A stretch of 64,000 nt of DNA from Rhodoluna sp. (GTDB lineage Bacteria; Actinomycetota; Actinomycetes; Actinomycetales; Microbacteriaceae). This document shows positions 6,866 through 52,510 of this stretch, piece after piece. The notes under the pieces are model-generated. The model searched no databases. It was not told the origin of the DNA and saw nothing but the letters and a program-made list of their open reading frames with translations. Location of the stretch: contig NZ_JAHEDV010000033.1 in the NCBI RefSeq assembly GCF_024641065.1, forward strand, positions 124,001 through 188,000. The letters are read 5' to 3'. Position numbers and translations under genes: made by a program. Every line of letters starts with the position of its first letter. Positions within the stretch are counted from its first letter, which is position 1.

Positions 6866-6866
6866 G

Positions 6867-6939
6867 AGCCGACTAGGGGACTCGAACCCCTAACCACCTC
6901 ATTACAAGTGAGGTGCGCTACCAATTGCGCCAAGTCGGC
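6867..6939 (-). tRNA. tRNA-Thr (anticodon TGT)
   Basis: The minus strand folds as a 73-nt cloverleaf. Acceptor GCCGACT pairs with AGTCGGC, the D arm is GCGC..GCGC, the anticodon stem CCTCA/TGAGG holds the loop CTTGTAA, and the T arm carries GGTTCGAGTCC. Anticodon TGT reads ACA and other ACN threonine codons; discriminator base is T. CCA is not encoded. Confidence 0.96.
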
Positions 6940-6941
6940 CA

Positions 6942-6957
6942 GTTGCCCGAAGGCAAC
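6942..6957 (-). ncRNA. 5' leader hairpin of tRNA-Thr(TGT)
   Basis: On the minus strand GTTGCC-TTCG-GGCAAC forms a perfect 6-bp stem with a UUCG tetraloop, ending two bases before the mature tRNA. A TAGGCT -10-like box lies six bases upstream, so the hairpin would be the very 5' end of the primary transcript. The same arrangement precedes the other two tRNA genes in the window. Confidence 0.6.
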
Positions 6958-6990
6958 CTGTCCAGCCTATAAGGTCTGGAAGATTTTTGC

Positions 6991-7830: not shown

Positions 7831-7958
7831 TGAGTCCTCAATCAGTTAGTCACAATATGGTGACAGTCAGGCTTTCAAGTCTAACCGCAGGCCCCTCTGA
7901 TGCCATAATGAAGTTCATCAGCAGCGTCGCTGTTGATGTTTCTATCACTACGGATCGT

Positions 7959-7976
7959 CCGGCACGTACCTGCCGG
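7959..7976 (+). promoter_or_regulatory. Hairpin in the leader of the sugar ABC ATPase gene
   Basis: CCGGCA-N6-TGCCGG is a perfect six-bp inverted repeat 17 bases before the ATG and just before the purine-rich ribosome site. It may be an operator or an mRNA stem near the start. The rest of the 163-base spacer holds a CATAAT -10-like box (about 7914-7919) and no gene. Confidence 0.4.
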
Positions 7977-7993
7977 TGAAGGAATAAGAAAAA

Positions 7994-23420: not shown

Positions 23421-23462
23421 GTTTTTACTCCCGCGTCACCCATGCGTGGCAAGATTGCAAGT

Positions 23463-25592
23463 ATGTCTTCTGAAGAAACTATGGCTATCTCTTTGCCAAA
23501 TTTTGGCACCGAGTTTGATGCCGACCGCTACCTTGACCGCGAGCTGAGCTGGCTTGCCTTTAATCAGCGAGTTTTAGAACTTGCCGAAGACCCGAATCTC
23601 TACTTGCTTGAGCGAGTCAACTTTCTGGCAATTTTCGCCTCAAACCTTGATGAATTCTTCATGGTTCGAGTTGCTGGTCTCAAGCGACGTATTGCCACCG
23701 GCCTAGCAGTAACTTCAAGCTCTGGCCTTTCACCTCAAGATGTGCTCAGCAAAATTAGCGCCGAGGCGCACCGTTTGCAGGAGCGTCACGCAGGCCTATT
23801 TATTGATGTAATCAAGCCAGCAATGAAAGACCAAGGGATCAGAATTGTTCGTTGGTCGGCCCTAGAAGCTGAAGAGAAAACTGCACTGCACGAATACTTT
23901 CAGAACCAGATTTTTCCGGTTCTGACTCCCCTAGCTGTTGACCCAGCCCACCCTTTTCCATACATCTCAGGTCTTTCGCTGAACCTGGCTGTTGTGGTTC
24001 GCAACATCGAAACCGGCAAAGAGCACTTTGCTCGCGTCAAGGTTCCGCCGCTGCTTCCGCGCTTTGTGCGCATCCCAGGTAACAAGGGTGTGGCAGATGC
24101 CAGATTCGTGCCTCTTGAAGACGTGATTGGTGAATTCTTGGGGCAGTTGTTCCCGGGCATGGAGGTGTTGCAGCAGCACACCTTTAGAGTTACCCGCAAC
24201 GAAGACCTTGAGGTTGACGAAGACGAGGGCGAAAACCTTTTGCTCGCGCTAGAAAAAGAATTGCTGCGTCGCCGATTTGGCCCGCCGGTTCGCCTCGAGG
24301 TTGCCAACGACATCAATCCACAGGTTCTAGAACTTCTAATTCGAGAACTCGACATCTCTGATGAAGATGTTTATCACCTACCTTCTCCGCTTGACCTGAC
24401 CGGTCTTTTTGAGATTGCGTCGTTGAAGCGACCAGAGCTTCACTACCCGCAGCACCACGTGATTACCAACCGTTTCTTGCAGCCGGTTGAAGACAAAGAT
24501 GTAAGCATCTTTTCGGTGCTTCGCCAACGCGATGTCTTGCTTCACCACCCCTACGAATCATTCTCAACCTCGGTTCAGGCATTTGTTGAGCAGGCAGCAG
24601 CTGACCCAAAGGTCTTGGCGATCAAGCAGACTTTGTATCGCACCTCAGGTGACTCACCAATTGTCGATGCCCTAATTGCTGCGGCAGAAGCCGGCAAGCA
24701 GGTTTTGGCGCTAGTTGAAATCAAGGCTCGCTTCGACGAGCAAAACAACATCGCCTGGGCCCGCAAACTTGAGCAAGCTGGTGTGCACGTTGTTTATGGC
24801 ATCGTCGGTCTAAAGACCCACTGCAAGCTTGCCCTTGTAATTCGCCAAGAAGGCAACCAACTAAAGCGCTATTGCCACGTTGGAACCGGAAACTACAACC
24901 CAAAGACAGCTCGCTATTACGAGGACTATGGCCTACTCACCTCACGCGATGCAGTTGGCGAAGACCTAACCAAGCTGTTCAACCAGCTATCTGGTTATGC
25001 TCCCGAGGCTGAATTCAAGTCACTCTTGGTTTCACCAAACGGCGTTCGCGAGGGTTTGGTTGAGCGCATCGAACGCGAAGTGGCATTTCACGCGGCTGGA
25101 AAAGATTCACGAATTCGCATCAAGGTGAACTCACTAGTTGACGAGCAGATCATCGACTCGCTTTATCGAGCGTCTTGCGCTGGCGTAAAAATTGAGATCG
25201 TGGTTCGCGGAATGTGTGCCCTAAAGCCAGGAGTACCTGGGTTGAGCGAAAACATCAAGGTGCGCTCGGTTCTCGGTCGTTATCTCGAGCACTCTCGAAT
25301 CTTTGCCTTTAACGGCGGTGGCGACCCGGCAGTGTTTATCGGTTCGGCCGACATGATGCATCGAAACCTCGACCGCCGCGTTGAAGCTTTGGTTCGCATT
25401 TCACAGCCAGACCACATCCGTGAATTAAATGCCTTCTTTGATTTGTGTATGGACGAGCGTTCGAGTTCTTGGCACCTTGCCTCAGATGGCACCTGGGCCC
25501 GCCACCAAGTTTCGGCCGAAGGTACCGCGCTAATTGATGTACAAGATCAGGTGATGAGCGAAGTATTCAGCAAGCGAAAGTCACGCATCTAG
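23463..25592 (+). CDS. ppk: Polyphosphate kinase 1
   Basis: A 709-aa PPK1 that makes long-chain polyphosphate from ATP reversibly. It starts near [22 protein letters not shown] (N domain). The head domain follows, then two phospholipase D-like catalytic domains, with the autophosphorylated histidine in [11 protein letters not shown], plus [30 protein letters not shown] and [11 protein letters not shown]. The start at 23463 is one choice; an in-frame ATG lies at 23442. The stop overlaps the GTG of the MutT1-like gene by one base. The ppk-mutT1 pair is conserved in mycobacteria (Rv2984-Rv2985), and the setting beside glnR and the phosphate regulators fits a nutrient-storage role. Confidence 0.96.
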
Positions 25593-29685: not shown

Positions 29686-29691
29686 TAGACT
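29686..29691 (+). promoter_or_regulatory. -10 box of tRNA-Lys
   Basis: TAGACT lies seven bases before the first G of the leader hairpin and 24 bases before the mature tRNA. No good -35 match is seen at 16-18 bp. Confidence 0.55.
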
Positions 29692-29698
29692 TGGATGC

Positions 29699-29713
29699 GT
29701 TGCCTTCGGGCAC
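29699..29713 (+). ncRNA. 5' leader hairpin of tRNA-Lys
   Basis: GTTGCC-TTCG-GGCAC: a 4-bp TGCC/GGCA stem capped by a UUCG tetraloop, a shortened form of the hairpin before tRNA-Thr(TGT). It starts at the predicted +1 and ends two bases before the mature tRNA. Confidence 0.55.
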
Positions 29714-29715
29714 AT

Positions 29716-29789
29716 GGGCCTCTAGCTCAGTTGGTTAGAGCAACGGACTTTTAATCCGTGGGTCGTCGGTTCGATCCCGACGGGGCCTA
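29716..29789 (+). tRNA. tRNA-Lys (anticodon TTT)
   Basis: A 74-nt cloverleaf. Acceptor GGGCCTC pairs with GGGGCCT (with two G-U pairs), D arm GCTC..GAGC, anticodon stem ACGGA/TCCGT around CTTTTAA, T arm GTCGG-TTCGATC-CCGAC. Anticodon TTT reads AAA/AAG. CCA is not encoded. Confidence 0.96.
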
Positions 29790-29799
29790 CAAGAAAATG

Positions 29800-32887: not shown

Positions 32888-32901
32888 TTCGCATAAGCGA
32901 A
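32888..32901. promoter_or_regulatory. TTCGC-N4-GCGAA operator candidate, copy 1
   Basis: TTCGCATAAGCGAA. Its centre is 42 bp from copy 2, four helical turns, so a regulator could bind both on one face. Confidence 0.5.
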
Positions 32902-32928
32902 TGCAAGCCAAGATAATATTGCAAAGTT

Positions 32929-32944
32929 GTTCGCCTATGCGAAC
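32929..32944. promoter_or_regulatory. TTCGC-N4-GCGAA operator candidate, copy 2
   Basis: GTTCGCCTATGCGAAC. It shares the core TTCGCnTAnGCGAA with copy 1 and ends 25 bases before the likely start codon. Confidence 0.5.
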
Positions 32945-32969
32945 ATTTAATTCGATTATGAGGCACGTC

Positions 32970-35228
32970 ATGCGAAGTCGATTTACTGCGAAATTCAAAT
33001 CTGGAAGCTTGAAGTCAATTTTGTCAATGGCTCTGGCTCTAACCTTTGGGCTGGTAGGAGCATTAGCATTTGTTCCGAGCGCAAAGGCCGCGACCGTAGT
33101 AGATGTGAGCGGTGTCGAACTTGACTTCAGTTCAAGCAAACGTACTGCGACTTCAACCCCGACAGCTTTGAACGGCACTGCTACCTATACCAATGTTGCA
33201 ACCGTTGGCGGAGTCCAAATTGATGCTCGTGTCACTACAGTCGCCCTTCAAAACTCCTCAGTCGATGTTTATGACTCACCAGGTAGCGCATCAGCCAACG
33301 AAAAATACTTTCAAATCAACAACACAACTTCAGTTGCGGGCGGATTTACATCCTTTAAGTTTGATTTTTACGACCATGCCGATGGTTCTGTTGCAGTGCT
33401 GAAAAACGTATCAGTAACCTCAATTGACCTCGACAGTCCTGGGCGCCAATTTACAGAATTCAACGGTTTTCAGTCATATGTCTTCTCAACCGACACGAAG
33501 TTGACGGCCTATACAACAAACCACACCGGTGGGGCTCTTGCTAATGGTCTGGTCCGCTTTGTTCAAACCCGCACCAATGCTGCTGTATCAAGCTCAAACG
33601 ATCCATTTTCTGCTGTTGAGGTCAAGTTTGACCAGATGAGTAGTTACACTGCGGTGTTCGGAAACGAAGTGGCCCAGGGTGGCTTTTACGGAGTGTCTTT
33701 CAAGGGCCTTTGCGCAACCGCAACCGGCAGCGCCTGTGGGGCGCGTTCTGCCGTATCAAACCCAAACAATAGCCCACCCACTTCACAAGACACCACCCGC
33801 TATTACGACCTGACCGTGCCGGCAATTCTGAGTTTGGCAAATTTCCCTTACTCTGACCCAGATGGAAACGCGTTTACAAACATCAAGGTCGAAACCCTGC
33901 CATCAACCGGCACATTGCAGTACTTCAATGGGACTGCATGGGTGAATGCAACCGTCGGGCTCACCGTATCCGTTGCAAACATTGAACTTGGATATCTCAG
34001 GTATTCCGGTTCTGGCTCCAGCTTCACCTACAAAGTCTCAGACGGTACCCTTTATTCGACTGCAGCAAACACCGTCAATCTTCTTGGCGCTCCAAACGGT
34101 CAGATAATTACTTTTACTAACCCTGGCAACAAAACTCCAACCGCACCAAATTTTGCATCGAATGCAGCAGCAGACTCGGGGCTAACAGTTGTTCTCACAT
34201 CACTAACTCCAAGTGTGTGCGTGGTGAGCGGACTAGATATTGACCCGATTGCAACCGGCGCCTGTACGATCGTGGCCAGCCAGCCAGGCAACGCCAATTA
34301 CGGTGCTGCGACGAACGTGACCCAAACTTTTTACATCACAACTGATGCATCGCAAACAATCACATTTGTGAATCCTGGCGACCAATCTTGGTCAGGCAGC
34401 TCGTTCACAGTCCCAACGACGCCAACAGCCACTTCTGGGCTAACAGTTACATTGACCTCATTCTCACCGGCTGTTTGCACAATTAGCGGCACCACTATTA
34501 CGGTGGTCGGCCCAGGAACCTGTCAGATTCGAGCTACCCAAGCAGGTGGGGCATCGGGAGGGACAACCTACGCGGCCGCACCACCAGTGACGATTTCATA
34601 CCTCGTCAGCGCACCTGTTGTGGCCAGCTACACAATCACCTATGACGGCAACGGAGCAACCAGCGGAACCGCACCAAGCGACACAACCGGCAACGGATCA
34701 GTGAGCCTAGCCACCAACAGCTCCCCACTAGCCAAACTAGGCTTCACCTTCGCAGGCTGGAACACGCAAGCCGACGGAACCGGAACCAACTACACAGCAG
34801 GTGCCAGCTACACGCTCAGCGCAGACATCACCCTCTACGCCAAATGGACAATTGTTGTATCCCCGCCAACACTGCCTGTTATCGATTTCTCTGGCAATGG
34901 TTCAAACAGCGGCGGAGTACCTCCGCAAATCAATGCCGACGGGTCGATCACAGTACCTGGAAATGTGGCTGGACTAATTAAAGGCGGGTACGTTTTCACA
35001 GGCTGGAACAGTCAGCCAGATGGCAAGGGTACTCACTTTGAGCCAGGCGACCGAGTTATGCTTTCTACCGGAATGACGCTTTACGCCGAGTGGGCTCCGA
35101 TTATTGAAGAAGAATCTTTGGCAGAAACAGGTGCCGAAGTTCAGTCCAGCGCTCTGTACGCATTTGCTGTCCTTATGATGATCGCCGGAGCAATCCTGTC
35201 GTCACCGAAAAGACGCAGTAAACACTAA
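32970..35228 (+). CDS. Large LAETG-anchored surface protein with Ig-like and InlB B-repeat modules
   Basis: About 752 aa. A signal peptide ends at PSAKA (about residue 40). A beta-rich domain runs to about 280, then a cadherin-like stretch (NSPPTSQDTTRYYDLTV), then two ~80-aa repeats each starting ITFTNPG/ITFVNPG and containing SVCVVSG/AVCTISG with GTC near the end. Two InlB B-type repeats follow (TITYDGNGA..FAGWNTQADGTG..LYAKW and a degenerate copy ending LYAEW). The C-terminus is LAETG, a membrane helix and KRRSKH, the signal for class E (LAxTG) sortases. It is probably an adhesin or surface-layer protein. ATGs at 32901, 32937 and 32958 are alternatives; 32970 gives the best signal peptide. 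No sortase gene lies in the window. Confidence 0.88.
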   Translation: MRSRFTAKFKSGSLKSILSMALALTFGLVGALAFVPSAKAATVVDVSGVELDFSSSKRTATSTPTALNGTATYTNVATVGGVQIDARVTTVALQNSSVDVYDSPGSASANEKYFQINNTTSVAGGFTSFKFDFYDHADGSVAVLKNVSVTSIDLDSPGRQFTEFNGFQSYVFSTDTKLTAYTTNHTGGALANGLVRFVQTRTNAAVSSSNDPFSAVEVKFDQMSSYTAVFGNEVAQGGFYGVSFKGLCATATGSACGARSAVSNPNNSPPTSQDTTRYYDLTVPAILSLANFPYSDPDGNAFTNIKVETLPSTGTLQYFNGTAWVNATVGLTVSVANIELGYLRYSGSGSSFTYKVSDGTLYSTAANTVNLLGAPNGQIITFTNPGNKTPTAPNFASNAAADSGLTVVLTSLTPSVCVVSGLDIDPIATGACTIVASQPGNANYGAATNVTQTFYITTDASQTITFVNPGDQSWSGSSFTVPTTPTATSGLTVTLTSFSPAVCTISGTTITVVGPGTCQIRATQAGGASGGTTYAAAPPVTISYLVSAPVVASYTITYDGNGATSGTAPSDTTGNGSVSLATNSSPLAKLGFTFAGWNTQADGTGTNYTAGASYTLSADITLYAKWTIVVSPPTLPVIDFSGNGSNSGGVPPQINADGSITVPGNVAGLIKGGYVFTGWNSQPDGKGTHFEPGDRVMLSTGMTLYAEWAPIIEEESLAETGAEVQSSALYAFAVLMMIAGAILSSPKRRSKH

Positions 35229-51451: not shown

Positions 51452-51479
51452 TTTTCGCAAGCCGTCGAGCCGGAACGAG

Positions 51480-51552
51480 AGCCACCTTGGGGAATTGAAC
51501 CCCAGACCTGCTCTTTACGAGGGAGCTGCTCTACCAACTGAGCTAAGGCGGC
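51480..51552 (-). tRNA. tRNA-Thr (anticodon CGT)
   Basis: The minus strand forms a 73-nt cloverleaf: acceptor GCCGCCT/AGGTGGC (one G-U), D arm GCTC..GAGC, anticodon loop CTCGTAA, T arm TGGGG-TTCAATT-CCCCA. Anticodon CGT reads ACG. The anticodon stem GCTCC/AGAGC has a C31-A39 mismatch next to the loop. Discriminator T, CCA not encoded. Confidence 0.94.
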
Positions 51553-51554
51553 AC

Positions 51555-51571
51555 GTTGCCGAATTGGCAAC
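51555..51571 (-). ncRNA. 5' leader hairpin of tRNA-Thr(CGT)
   Basis: On the minus strand GTTGCC-AATTC-GGCAAC, ending two bases before the mature tRNA. TAAGAT (revcomp of 51578-51583) lies six bases before it, so the hairpin starts at the predicted +1, as in the other two tRNA genes. The stem is conserved and the loop differs. Confidence 0.6.
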
Positions 51572-51580
51572 TAGAAAATC

Positions 51581-52510
51581 TTACCGCTGGGCAAGAATGC
51601 CGATGCGTTCAAGCCTGGCAATCGCGCCATCTTCAATAGGGCTTTCTGGGCCAATGGCAAGGCGAATGAATCGAAGCACTCCCCTGGTGGTCGGCTGAAT
51701 CAACCAGCGGGGTTTTGCCTTGAGGCCGAGCATCGATCTAAATTCCGCAGGCAGCGACAGCACAGCAGCGTCAAACAACAGTCTGTAAACCAGCTTGGCC
51801 GCCGCAGGGAGTGGCGGATTCTTGATGAACTTGACAACATTCAAAGTGGTTTCGTCAGCGCGAAGCAGGCCATCTGAGTTGAATTTTTCAATTGCCGCAT
51901 TGAGTTCTTGGGCATTCATGGGTGCTGTATCTAGACCAAGAGGAATCACTGACTTTGCCCACTGGGCGATGTAGTTGTCGGCACCAGTGGGCGCTTGGCC
52001 GGCAGGAATTTCACGCCAGGCATACATCTGATGACAGGTTAGAAACGATTCGGTGAATGCAATGTGCACCCAAAGCAAAAGGTCTGGGTCAGCTGCGCGA
52101 TAAGCCCTGGCTTCGCCCTGACCAGTTAGGTATTCGCCCTTGACCCGCTCGTGAAGTCGGTTGACTCGAGATGATTCACCGGCAACCGCATTATGCGAAC
52201 CAAAGGTGGTGACTGTGAGCCAGCGAATGGTTCCAGCAAGGCGGCCAAGTGCATCTTGTTCATATCTAGAGTGATTGGCCACTCCCGTTAGCGAGCCCGG
52301 ATGAAGTGCCTGCATCAACAAAGCACGGATGCCGCCGACCAGCGTTCCGAAGTCAGCATGAACAATCCATGGGGCATCGGTAGGCAAGTAGAGCCCGGGT
52401 TCGTCTCCGGCTGCAATTACATCGAGCCAAGGCGGAACTCCATCTGGGTCACCTGAGAGCAAGCGACGAAAACGCTTTGAAAGCGCCTCTTGGAGTGCAT
52501 TATTGGGCAT
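51581..52510 (-). CDS. MpaB-family oxygenase-like protein (DUF2236)
   Basis: A 309-aa helical protein. It has the conserved LMQALHPGSLTGVANHS histidines and the DLLLWVHIAFTESFL segment of the DUF2236/MpaB family, whose founder (rubber oxygenase-type latex-clearing relatives) binds heme b. The substrate is unknown. TAGTCT lies six bases before the ATG (leaderless). Its stop lies close to the -10 of tRNA-Thr(CGT), which is transcribed the same way. Confidence 0.85.
   Translation of the reverse strand: MPNNALQEALSKRFRRLLSGDPDGVPPWLDVIAAGDEPGLYLPTDAPWIVHADFGTLVGGIRALLMQALHPGSLTGVANHSRYEQDALGRLAGTIRWLTVTTFGSHNAVAGESSRVNRLHERVKGEYLTGQGEARAYRAADPDLLLWVHIAFTESFLTCHQMYAWREIPAGQAPTGADNYIAQWAKSVIPLGLDTAPMNAQELNAAIEKFNSDGLLRADETTLNVVKFIKNPPLPAAAKLVYRLLFDAAVLSLPAEFRSMLGLKAKPRWLIQPTTRGVLRFIRLAIGPESPIEDGAIARLERIGILAQR

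Follow-up and report, generated by a model that had tools for sequence, protein, structure and literature searches.

Leaders of tRNA precursors are usually regarded as disposable. Whether they are is a question raised by a 64,000-nucleotide (nt) stretch of a Rhodoluna sp. genome (contig NZ_JAHEDV010000033.1, positions 124,001–188,000; this whole stretch is termed the window), in which the precursors of all three tRNAs are predicted to begin with a hairpin. The original prediction, made from the letters of the window, was that a shared hairpin, in leaders of uniform sequence, precedes every tRNA gene of the window. The sequences analysed here point to a regularity of shape and length: tRNAs of the genus that start a transcript appear mostly to have either a short leader of 3–9 nt or one of at least 15 nt, and nearly all of the longer leaders are predicted to form a hairpin.

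Hairpins at the three tRNA genes of the window

The window belongs to the small genome of an actinobacterium, a draft assembly with 33 contigs and 1.43 Mb in total. ARAGORN was used to call tRNA genes and an Rfam scan of the window to check the families. Exactly three tRNA genes were called, all standing alone, and they share a layout of TANNNT, 6–7 nt, hairpin, 2-nt linker and tRNA. tRNA-Thr(TGT) is at 6866–6939 on the minus strand (Rfam RF00005, 72.8 bits). Its best match to the −10 matrix is TAGGCT (6964–6969, minus strand), which places +1 at G6957; the predicted 5′-terminal hairpin, GTTGCC-TTCG-GGCAAC, spans 6942–6957 (minus strand) and is followed by the linker TG. The 18-nt leader has a minimum free energy (MFE) of −8.5 kcal/mol, and 0/100 shuffles are as low. 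tRNA-Thr(CGT), called by ARAGORN and matched by Rfam at 51479–51552 (minus strand), has the −10 matrix match TAAGAT (51578–51583, minus strand) and the hairpin GTTGCC-AATTC-GGCAAC (51555–51571, minus strand), with linker GT and an MFE of −9.4 kcal/mol (0/100 shuffles as low). The hairpin of tRNA-Lys(TTT), a gene found by both programs at 29716–29790 (plus strand), is weaker. It reads GTTGCC-TTCG-GGCAC (29699–29713, plus strand), with a 4 bp core and linker AT, and its MFE is −4.4 kcal/mol (6/100 shuffles as low); counting 7 nt from the predicted −10 box TAGACT (29686–29691, plus strand) puts +1 at C29698, 1 base 5′ of the stem. The hairpins first read from the letters, with loops TTCG, TTCG and AATTC, are thus borne out by tRNA calling, sequence and shuffles.

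The pattern GTTGCC-N4/5-GGCA has five matches over both strands of the window. These represent three sites, all at tRNAs. In 100 dinucleotide shuffles the mean number of matches is 0.57 and the largest is 4, and 0/100 reach 5. An intrinsic terminator is ruled out in the window, in agreement with the original prediction: all three stems lack a following T-run and are succeeded by TG, AT or GT and then the tRNA. A known Rfam RNA family is likewise ruled out, the only matches in the scan being the three tRNAs and one msiK RNA.

The literal claim fails beyond the window. The genome has 42 Rfam tRNA matches, which give 41 distinct ARAGORN genes, one of them at a contig start and without upstream sequence. 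The GTTGCC hairpin is present at 5 of the 41 (Thr TGT, Lys TTT, Thr CGT, Ala GGC and Arg ACG). A uniform leader at every tRNA gene is therefore refuted by the very observation that had been named as decisive, other tRNA genes without the hairpin. Since many of these other tRNAs have a different hairpin or almost no leader, shape was tested and not sequence. Some of the leaders at loci L012 and L105 (tRNA-Arg(ACG)) and L045, L047 and L053 (tRNA-Thr(TGT)) have two serial hairpins, and among the same loci some GTTGCC hairpins lie ∼25–40 nt ahead of the tRNA.

Leader length, folding and anchoring at the predicted start

The same-genus set comprises 243 ARAGORN tRNAs from the genome of the window, from two complete relatives (G006 and G016; in the latter 35 tRNAs were read against 40 Rfam matches and three stretches were left out) and from four orthologue families, Thr(TGT), Lys(TTT), Val(TAC) and Ala(GGC), in up to 31 genomes. 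Of 196 distinct tRNAs with at least 100 nt of upstream DNA, 20 are internal, i.e. behind another tRNA, and 176 are not; the analysis was confined to the 149 of the latter that have a −10 score above 5, which left out 27. These same upstream regions served to train the −10 matrix; +1 was always taken as the seventh base after the −10 box, blind to the fold. A fold is termed stable at an MFE of −2 kcal/mol or lower and significant if it ranks among the lowest 5% when the leader is compared with 100 shuffled versions of itself. The counts are not independent, since the rows share ancestry and 87 of the 149 belong to the four orthologue families.

Leader lengths are unevenly distributed. There are 33 leaders of 3–9 nt, 5 of 10–14, 53 of 15–19, 6 of 20–24 and 33 of 25–30, and 19 are longer; thus 111 have at least 15 nt. 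Folds are stable in 48/53 leaders of 15–19 nt (significant in 43/53), in 5/6 of 20–24 nt (2/6), in 33/33 of 25–30 nt (26/33) and in 19/19 of 31–60 nt (13/19). Altogether, 84/111 leaders of at least 15 nt fold better than 95% of their own shuffles. Leaders of 3–9 nt are too short to fold, and the missing hairpin is therefore trivial there; the evidence lies in the scarcity of 10–14 nt leaders and in how the longer ones fold. The genome of the window follows this distribution. A clear −10 box is lacking at 6 of its 33 non-internal tRNAs, and among the other 27, six have leaders of 8 nt or shorter with no hairpin and 21 have leaders of at least 16 nt. Stable folds are found in 20 of these 21, mostly with stems other than GTTGCC, and 15/21 are significant.

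Controls were taken from the same loci. Of random 18-mers (n = 1500), 25% reach −2 kcal/mol and 6.6% are significant; for 18-mers that follow −10-like hexamers elsewhere (n = 503), the values are 28% and 12%. For tRNA leaders (n = 111), the 18-mers that begin at +1 reach −2 kcal/mol in 77% and significance in 57% of cases.

The folds are anchored to the predicted start. The stem begins at +1 in 73 of 105 folded leaders, at +2 in 17 and at +3 in 7; the corresponding values for shuffled leaders that fold are 26%, 15% and 12%. Thus 90/105 stems begin at the predicted first or second nucleotide, vs 41% in shuffled leaders, and the placement of the hairpin at the +1 deduced from the −10 box, as had been proposed for the window, is supported. 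The linker between hairpin and tRNA ranges from 0 to 13 nt, with 2–5 nt in 76/105 and 2 nt as the commonest length (31/105). With several of the Val(TAC) leaders and with those of Gln(CTG), a stretch of 9–13 nt separates the tRNA from a stem that has kept its place at the start.

The stems themselves differ among orthologues. Lys(TTT) orthologues have TGCC/GGCA, CGTGC/GCACG, GCGC/GCGC, GACGC/GCGTC and TCTGC/GCAGA; those of Thr(TGT) have GTTGCC/GGCAAC, GTTGCT/AGCAAC, GTTACC/GGTAAC and GGAC/GTCC. In MAFFT alignments the differing lengths of loops and stems lead to misplaced arms, and pairs were therefore not counted on alignments. Instead, an arm-swap test was applied, in which the first 8 nt of one leader are joined to the remainder of another in 1000 permutations, with no preselection of folded rows. 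For 57 distinct leaders of 14–22 nt, the mean MFE is −5.20 kcal/mol for native leaders vs −2.18 for swapped ones, and 0/1000 permutations are as low. The same value of 0/1000 holds within each of the families Lys (16 leaders), Thr(TGT) (9), Ala (18) and Val (12). For the genome of the window alone, with eight leaders, several of which share the GTTGCC stem, 12/1000 are as low. A GTTGCC hairpin with compensatory changes had been suggested for the genome and its relatives; pairing is kept, and the literal motif is not general. Judged from the sequences, the hairpin is conserved as a shape while its letters turn over.

Binding of the hairpin by a protein, one of the functions first suggested, is unlikely because the stem letters vary freely among orthologues. 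In particular, a binding site or operator for one protein is ruled out by the quite different stems of the Lys(TTT) and Thr(TGT) orthologues. Chance or artefact, in the form of inverted-repeat promoters, misplaced −10 boxes or terminators of upstream genes, might account for single cases: by eye, the hairpin of tRNA-Leu(TAA) resembles a terminator, with TTTT after it, and the choice of −10 box is doubtful for Lys(CTT) and Arg(CCT). As an explanation of the whole it is very improbable, the shuffle, random-18-mer, arm-swap and anchoring tests all disfavouring chance.

GTTG is found within +1 to +6 in 54 of the 111 longer leaders. This is a sequence preference of the transcript start, separate from the hairpin. 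A transcriptional role, in which the initial GTTG and the hairpin would help the polymerase to leave strong stable-RNA promoters or keep it from backtracking there, could draw on this preference, and on the significant folds of 18-mers after −10-like sites (12%, vs 6.6% of random ones). It is nevertheless improbable: folds of −2 kcal/mol or lower are found in 52/57 leaders without GTTG and 53/54 with it, and short-leader tRNAs with similar −10 boxes have no stem. GTTG as the sole cause of the hairpins is ruled out, as leaders without it fold about as often.

A further comparison is with cluster-internal tRNAs of the genus: the 18 nt that precede them have a fold of −2 kcal/mol or lower at 5/20, and the opening 18 nt of leaders have one in 84/111 (Fisher p 2e-5). 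Like for like, i.e. for the 18 nt directly 5′ of the tRNA, the values are 5/20 and 63/111 (Fisher p 0.014). This contrast, of modest strength, indicates that some aspect of a 5′-terminal position is favourable to a stem. The cause of the preference could be either closure of the triphosphate end or the pairing off of an initial GTTG imposed by the promoter (54/111).

Proposed insulation of the tRNA and closure of the 5′ end

What might a leader hairpin do? The effect of leaders on the acceptor stem was calculated with ViennaRNA. For leaders of 14–22 nt, the acceptor stem has a mean pairing probability of 0.935 when the leader is removed, 0.918 behind native leaders and 0.598 behind shuffled ones. 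The native leader beats the shuffled one in 58/59 cases, and the expected number of leader:tRNA pairs is 0.47 vs 3.84. With random genomic leaders of 3 and 6 nt the acceptor stem is almost undisturbed (3.8% of 6-mers bring it below 0.5). The proportion below 0.5 is 15.8% at 9 nt, 25% at 12 nt, 33% at 15 nt and 30% at 18 nt; harm thus starts at 9–12 nt, which fits the gap at 10–14 nt. Native leaders were scored for the 139 of 149 rows in which the program folds the tRNA correctly on its own; they bring the acceptor stem below 0.5 in 0/51 cases at 15–19 nt, 0/34 at 20–30 nt and 2/19 above 30 nt. Since native hairpin leaders spare the acceptor stem in these calculations, a hairpin would be enough to neutralise a leader.

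The reading considered here to have about an even chance is that a hairpin that folds first sequesters the leader, as its main selected effect, and secondarily closes off the 5′ end. Promoter positions would drift, and leaders long enough to pair with the tRNA would need neutralising. If the real transcription starts are those predicted, a hairpin formed by the first transcribed nucleotides would fold ahead of tRNA emergence, and this co-transcriptional order would keep the leader from invading the acceptor stem; it is for such insulation that hairpins would have been selected. The 5′ end would be left blunt and hard for end-dependent nucleases to reach, and the short linker would give RNase P room to cut. 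Protection of the 5′ end by closure may also explain why the stem is positioned at +1 instead of adjoining the tRNA.

Several points weigh against this reading. Native leaders shorter than 10 nt bring the acceptor stem below 0.5 in 4/31 cases, which is worse than random 6-mers (3.8%), and native leaders of 10–14 nt, the avoided class, harm it in 0/4. Spacers ahead of cluster-internal tRNAs also spare the acceptor stem (0.876 for 17 tRNAs; A+C is 64%, vs 46% in leaders) with a stable fold at only 5/20; therefore insulation alone does not demand a hairpin. Any hairpin leader looks insulating to a folding program, and the calculations accordingly speak for a sufficient effect and not for selection for insulation. 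The +1 positions are predicted from −10 boxes with a matrix trained on the same leaders. Some hairpins, those of Val, Gln(CTG) and transfer-messenger RNA (tmRNA), are at least 9 nt from the mature part, beyond what insulation needs. Closure of the 5′ end is not universal, since leaders of 3–9 nt stay open. Finally, the gap is weaker outside the genus, where leaders of 10–14 nt are less rare (3/20, 3/14 and 1/16 in G020, G021 and G029, genomes from other families of the order).

The main rival to sequestration is pure end protection. Here the hairpin would be mainly a 5′-end block, its paired, triphosphate-bearing first nucleotide keeping pyrophosphohydrolases, RNase J and 5′-end-sensing RNase E off until RNase P has cut. 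RNase J is a 5′-3′ exonuclease, and the genome encodes both RNase J and RNase E/G. The stem positions (predicted +1 in 73/105, +2 in 17/105) are as expected for such a block, as are the Val(TAC) and Gln(CTG) hairpins that stay at the start though far from the mature end, the tmRNA hairpins at predicted +1 in 6/12 (with a −10 score above 5 in only 2/6), and the rarity of stable folds ahead of cluster-internal tRNAs, whose 5′ side carries no triphosphate. The alternative is rather doubtful all the same: 33/149 leaders (3–9 nt) have an open 5′ end, and the shortage of 10–14 nt leaders is not predicted by it, as an exonuclease would presumably just halt at the acceptor stem. Stem-loops of the ompA type at the 5′ terminus stabilise mRNAs. 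The leaders described here resemble them in having a stem at the very 5′ end, with at most one unpaired nucleotide before it, as judged from predicted starts; they differ in that the ompA type is on mRNAs and the present hairpins are on tRNA, and partly tmRNA, precursors that are due for cutting by RNase P. A general dependence of RNase E and RNase J on the 5′ end is described in PMC3997798.

Other bacteria, tmRNA and known leader stem-loops

Does the pattern extend beyond the genus? Stretches of G020, G021 and G029, complete genomes that represent other families of the order, cover 42/46, 38/46 and 39/49 Rfam tRNA matches and yield 42, 39 and 39 ARAGORN calls, respectively. Leaders of at least 15 nt with a clear −10 box have significant folds in 6/11, 9/10 and 8/10 cases. 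The arm-swap test on non-internal leaders of 14–25 nt, with no −10 cut-off, gives 0/1000 in each genome (6, 10 and 9 leaders). The three G020 leaders of 10–14 nt are themselves significant small folds. Across further genomes of the order, the signal for Lys(TTT) is weak: 13/29 have a clear −10 box and 4/10 leaders of at least 15 nt are significant. Elsewhere in the phylum, 32/60 genomes matched the query, and 28 new loci gave 29 non-internal tRNAs, 14 with a clear −10 box; six of these leaders have at least 15 nt (2/6 significant), five are short and three have 10–14 nt.

In Escherichia coli K-12, 22 chosen stretches contain 29 non-internal ARAGORN calls, 28 of them with an acceptable −10 box. 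Seventeen leaders have at least 15 nt, among them that of one call (Arg, L418) not in the annotation; 12 of the 17 reach −2 kcal/mol or lower and 8 are significant. Folds of any energy start at nucleotide 1 or 2 in 9/17, including valV, serX, metT and lysT, and leaders of 10–14 nt number 5/28. On this sequence evidence E. coli appears to show the hairpin pattern in part.

For tmRNA, 14/21 genomes of the genus matched above the cut-off, and 12 tmRNAs have readable upstream DNA. A hairpin from the predicted +1 is present in 6/12, with differing stems. The linker is ∼16 nt or more and ends in a conserved AACTA-type stretch. These leaders agree, weakly, with anchoring that would be at the start and not at the mature end. 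In the 12 tmRNA leaders (loci L311–L323) the last dozen nt before the mature 5′ end are alike, GGTAACTAAATAT or similar; the DNA 5′ of this conserved end mostly differs.

Single cases of leader stem-loops are already known. Zhao and Harris reportedly dealt in 2019 with the stem-loop in the valVW pre-tRNA leader of E. coli. A fold computed here has the valV stem running from the second leader nucleotide to 2 nt before the tRNA. According to PMC10731613, E. coli RNase P is ∼10-fold slower on a leader with a stem-loop in the binding site of the RNase P protein, even where the precursor holds a single tRNA, and the 3′-to-5′ order of valVW processing is imposed by stem-loops around its first tRNA; the place given for the leader stem-loop is read here as adjoining the tRNA, since the P protein binding site is named. 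The present leaders are like valVW in having a stable stem-loop close to the RNase P site (linker of 2–5 nt in 76/105). In valVW, however, it is an anti-determinant of RNase P that orders a two-tRNA transcript, as PMC10731613 has it, and here the tRNAs are mostly single: only 8/105 folded same-genus leaders are on a tRNA with another tRNA within 250 nt downstream, so that the valVW-type position is mostly absent. Also unlike valVW, the present hairpins recur at many tRNAs, are anchored at +1, have no common sequence and extend over the genus and other families of the order.

Guiding of RNase P by the hairpin, as originally suggested, is unlikely because the effect reported in PMC10731613 is slowing. 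Could the stem instead slow or order RNase P cleavage in the manner of valVW, with 3′-end maturation going first? The reduced rate of E. coli RNase P with a valVW-type leader stem-loop, seen also with a single tRNA (PMC10731613), and the commonest linker of 2 nt (31/105) are in keeping with this. Yet 97/105 folded leaders, those of the window included, are on tRNAs with no other tRNA within 250 nt downstream, which leaves few transcripts in which one tRNA could be ordered relative to another. Moreover, linker length spans 0–13 nt against a nearly constant 5′ offset, and the delay of a needed step would be an odd default. This explanation is accordingly improbable, if slightly less so than the transcriptional one.

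The tyrT precursor leader of E. coli is known from classic work on pre-tRNA-Tyr. Like the present leaders, it starts with a hairpin close to +1, in its case GCTTCCC-loop-GGGAGC; unlike them, it has 44 nt (estimated from the −10 box) and is not significant in the shuffle test (0.14). Pettersson et al. reportedly found in 2005, to go by the title, that leader length in E. coli tRNA precursors matters for growth. That title concerns length only.

It is proposed, tentatively and at somewhat less than an even chance, that a general construction rule applies to primary transcripts of stable RNAs in the order of the window (probably Actinomycetales), and more weakly in other bacteria. Free leaders of intermediate length would be avoided; a leader would be either too short to pair or capped by a hairpin from its first nucleotide, with compensatory turnover, and tmRNA precursors would be built likewise. 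If true, leaders would be a selected part of the transcript, shaped by tRNA folding and 5′-end control. The rule would predict which promoter positions are tolerable to a tRNA gene, suggest why tRNA promoters and leaders co-evolve, and provide a simple design rule for tRNA expression in actinobacteria. No report of a genome-wide leader hairpin rule was found in a literature search that had most subscription journals outside its reach; in this sense single cases such as valVW are known and the general rule was not found described. Leader hairpins are not mentioned in the available parts of two Streptomyces transcriptome papers, PMC8079986 and PMC4681348 (including part of the stable-RNA section of the latter), and portions of PMC8509007 and PMC11143913 hold nothing that bears on them.

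Other features of the window include the msiK RNA (Rfam RF01747, 62.6 bits), a cis-regulatory element at 7932–7993 on the plus strand, ∼1 kb from tRNA-Thr(TGT). The gene at 23442–25592, recognised with no family search, is presumably that of polyphosphate kinase; 80 loci around its relatives gave 17 tRNA calls, mostly with no clear −10 box. The open reading frame at 32901–35228 (plus strand, 775 amino acids) has, by eye, WNTQADGTGT-type repeats near the C-terminal end and a likely membrane anchor, and its product resembles a repeat-bearing surface protein.
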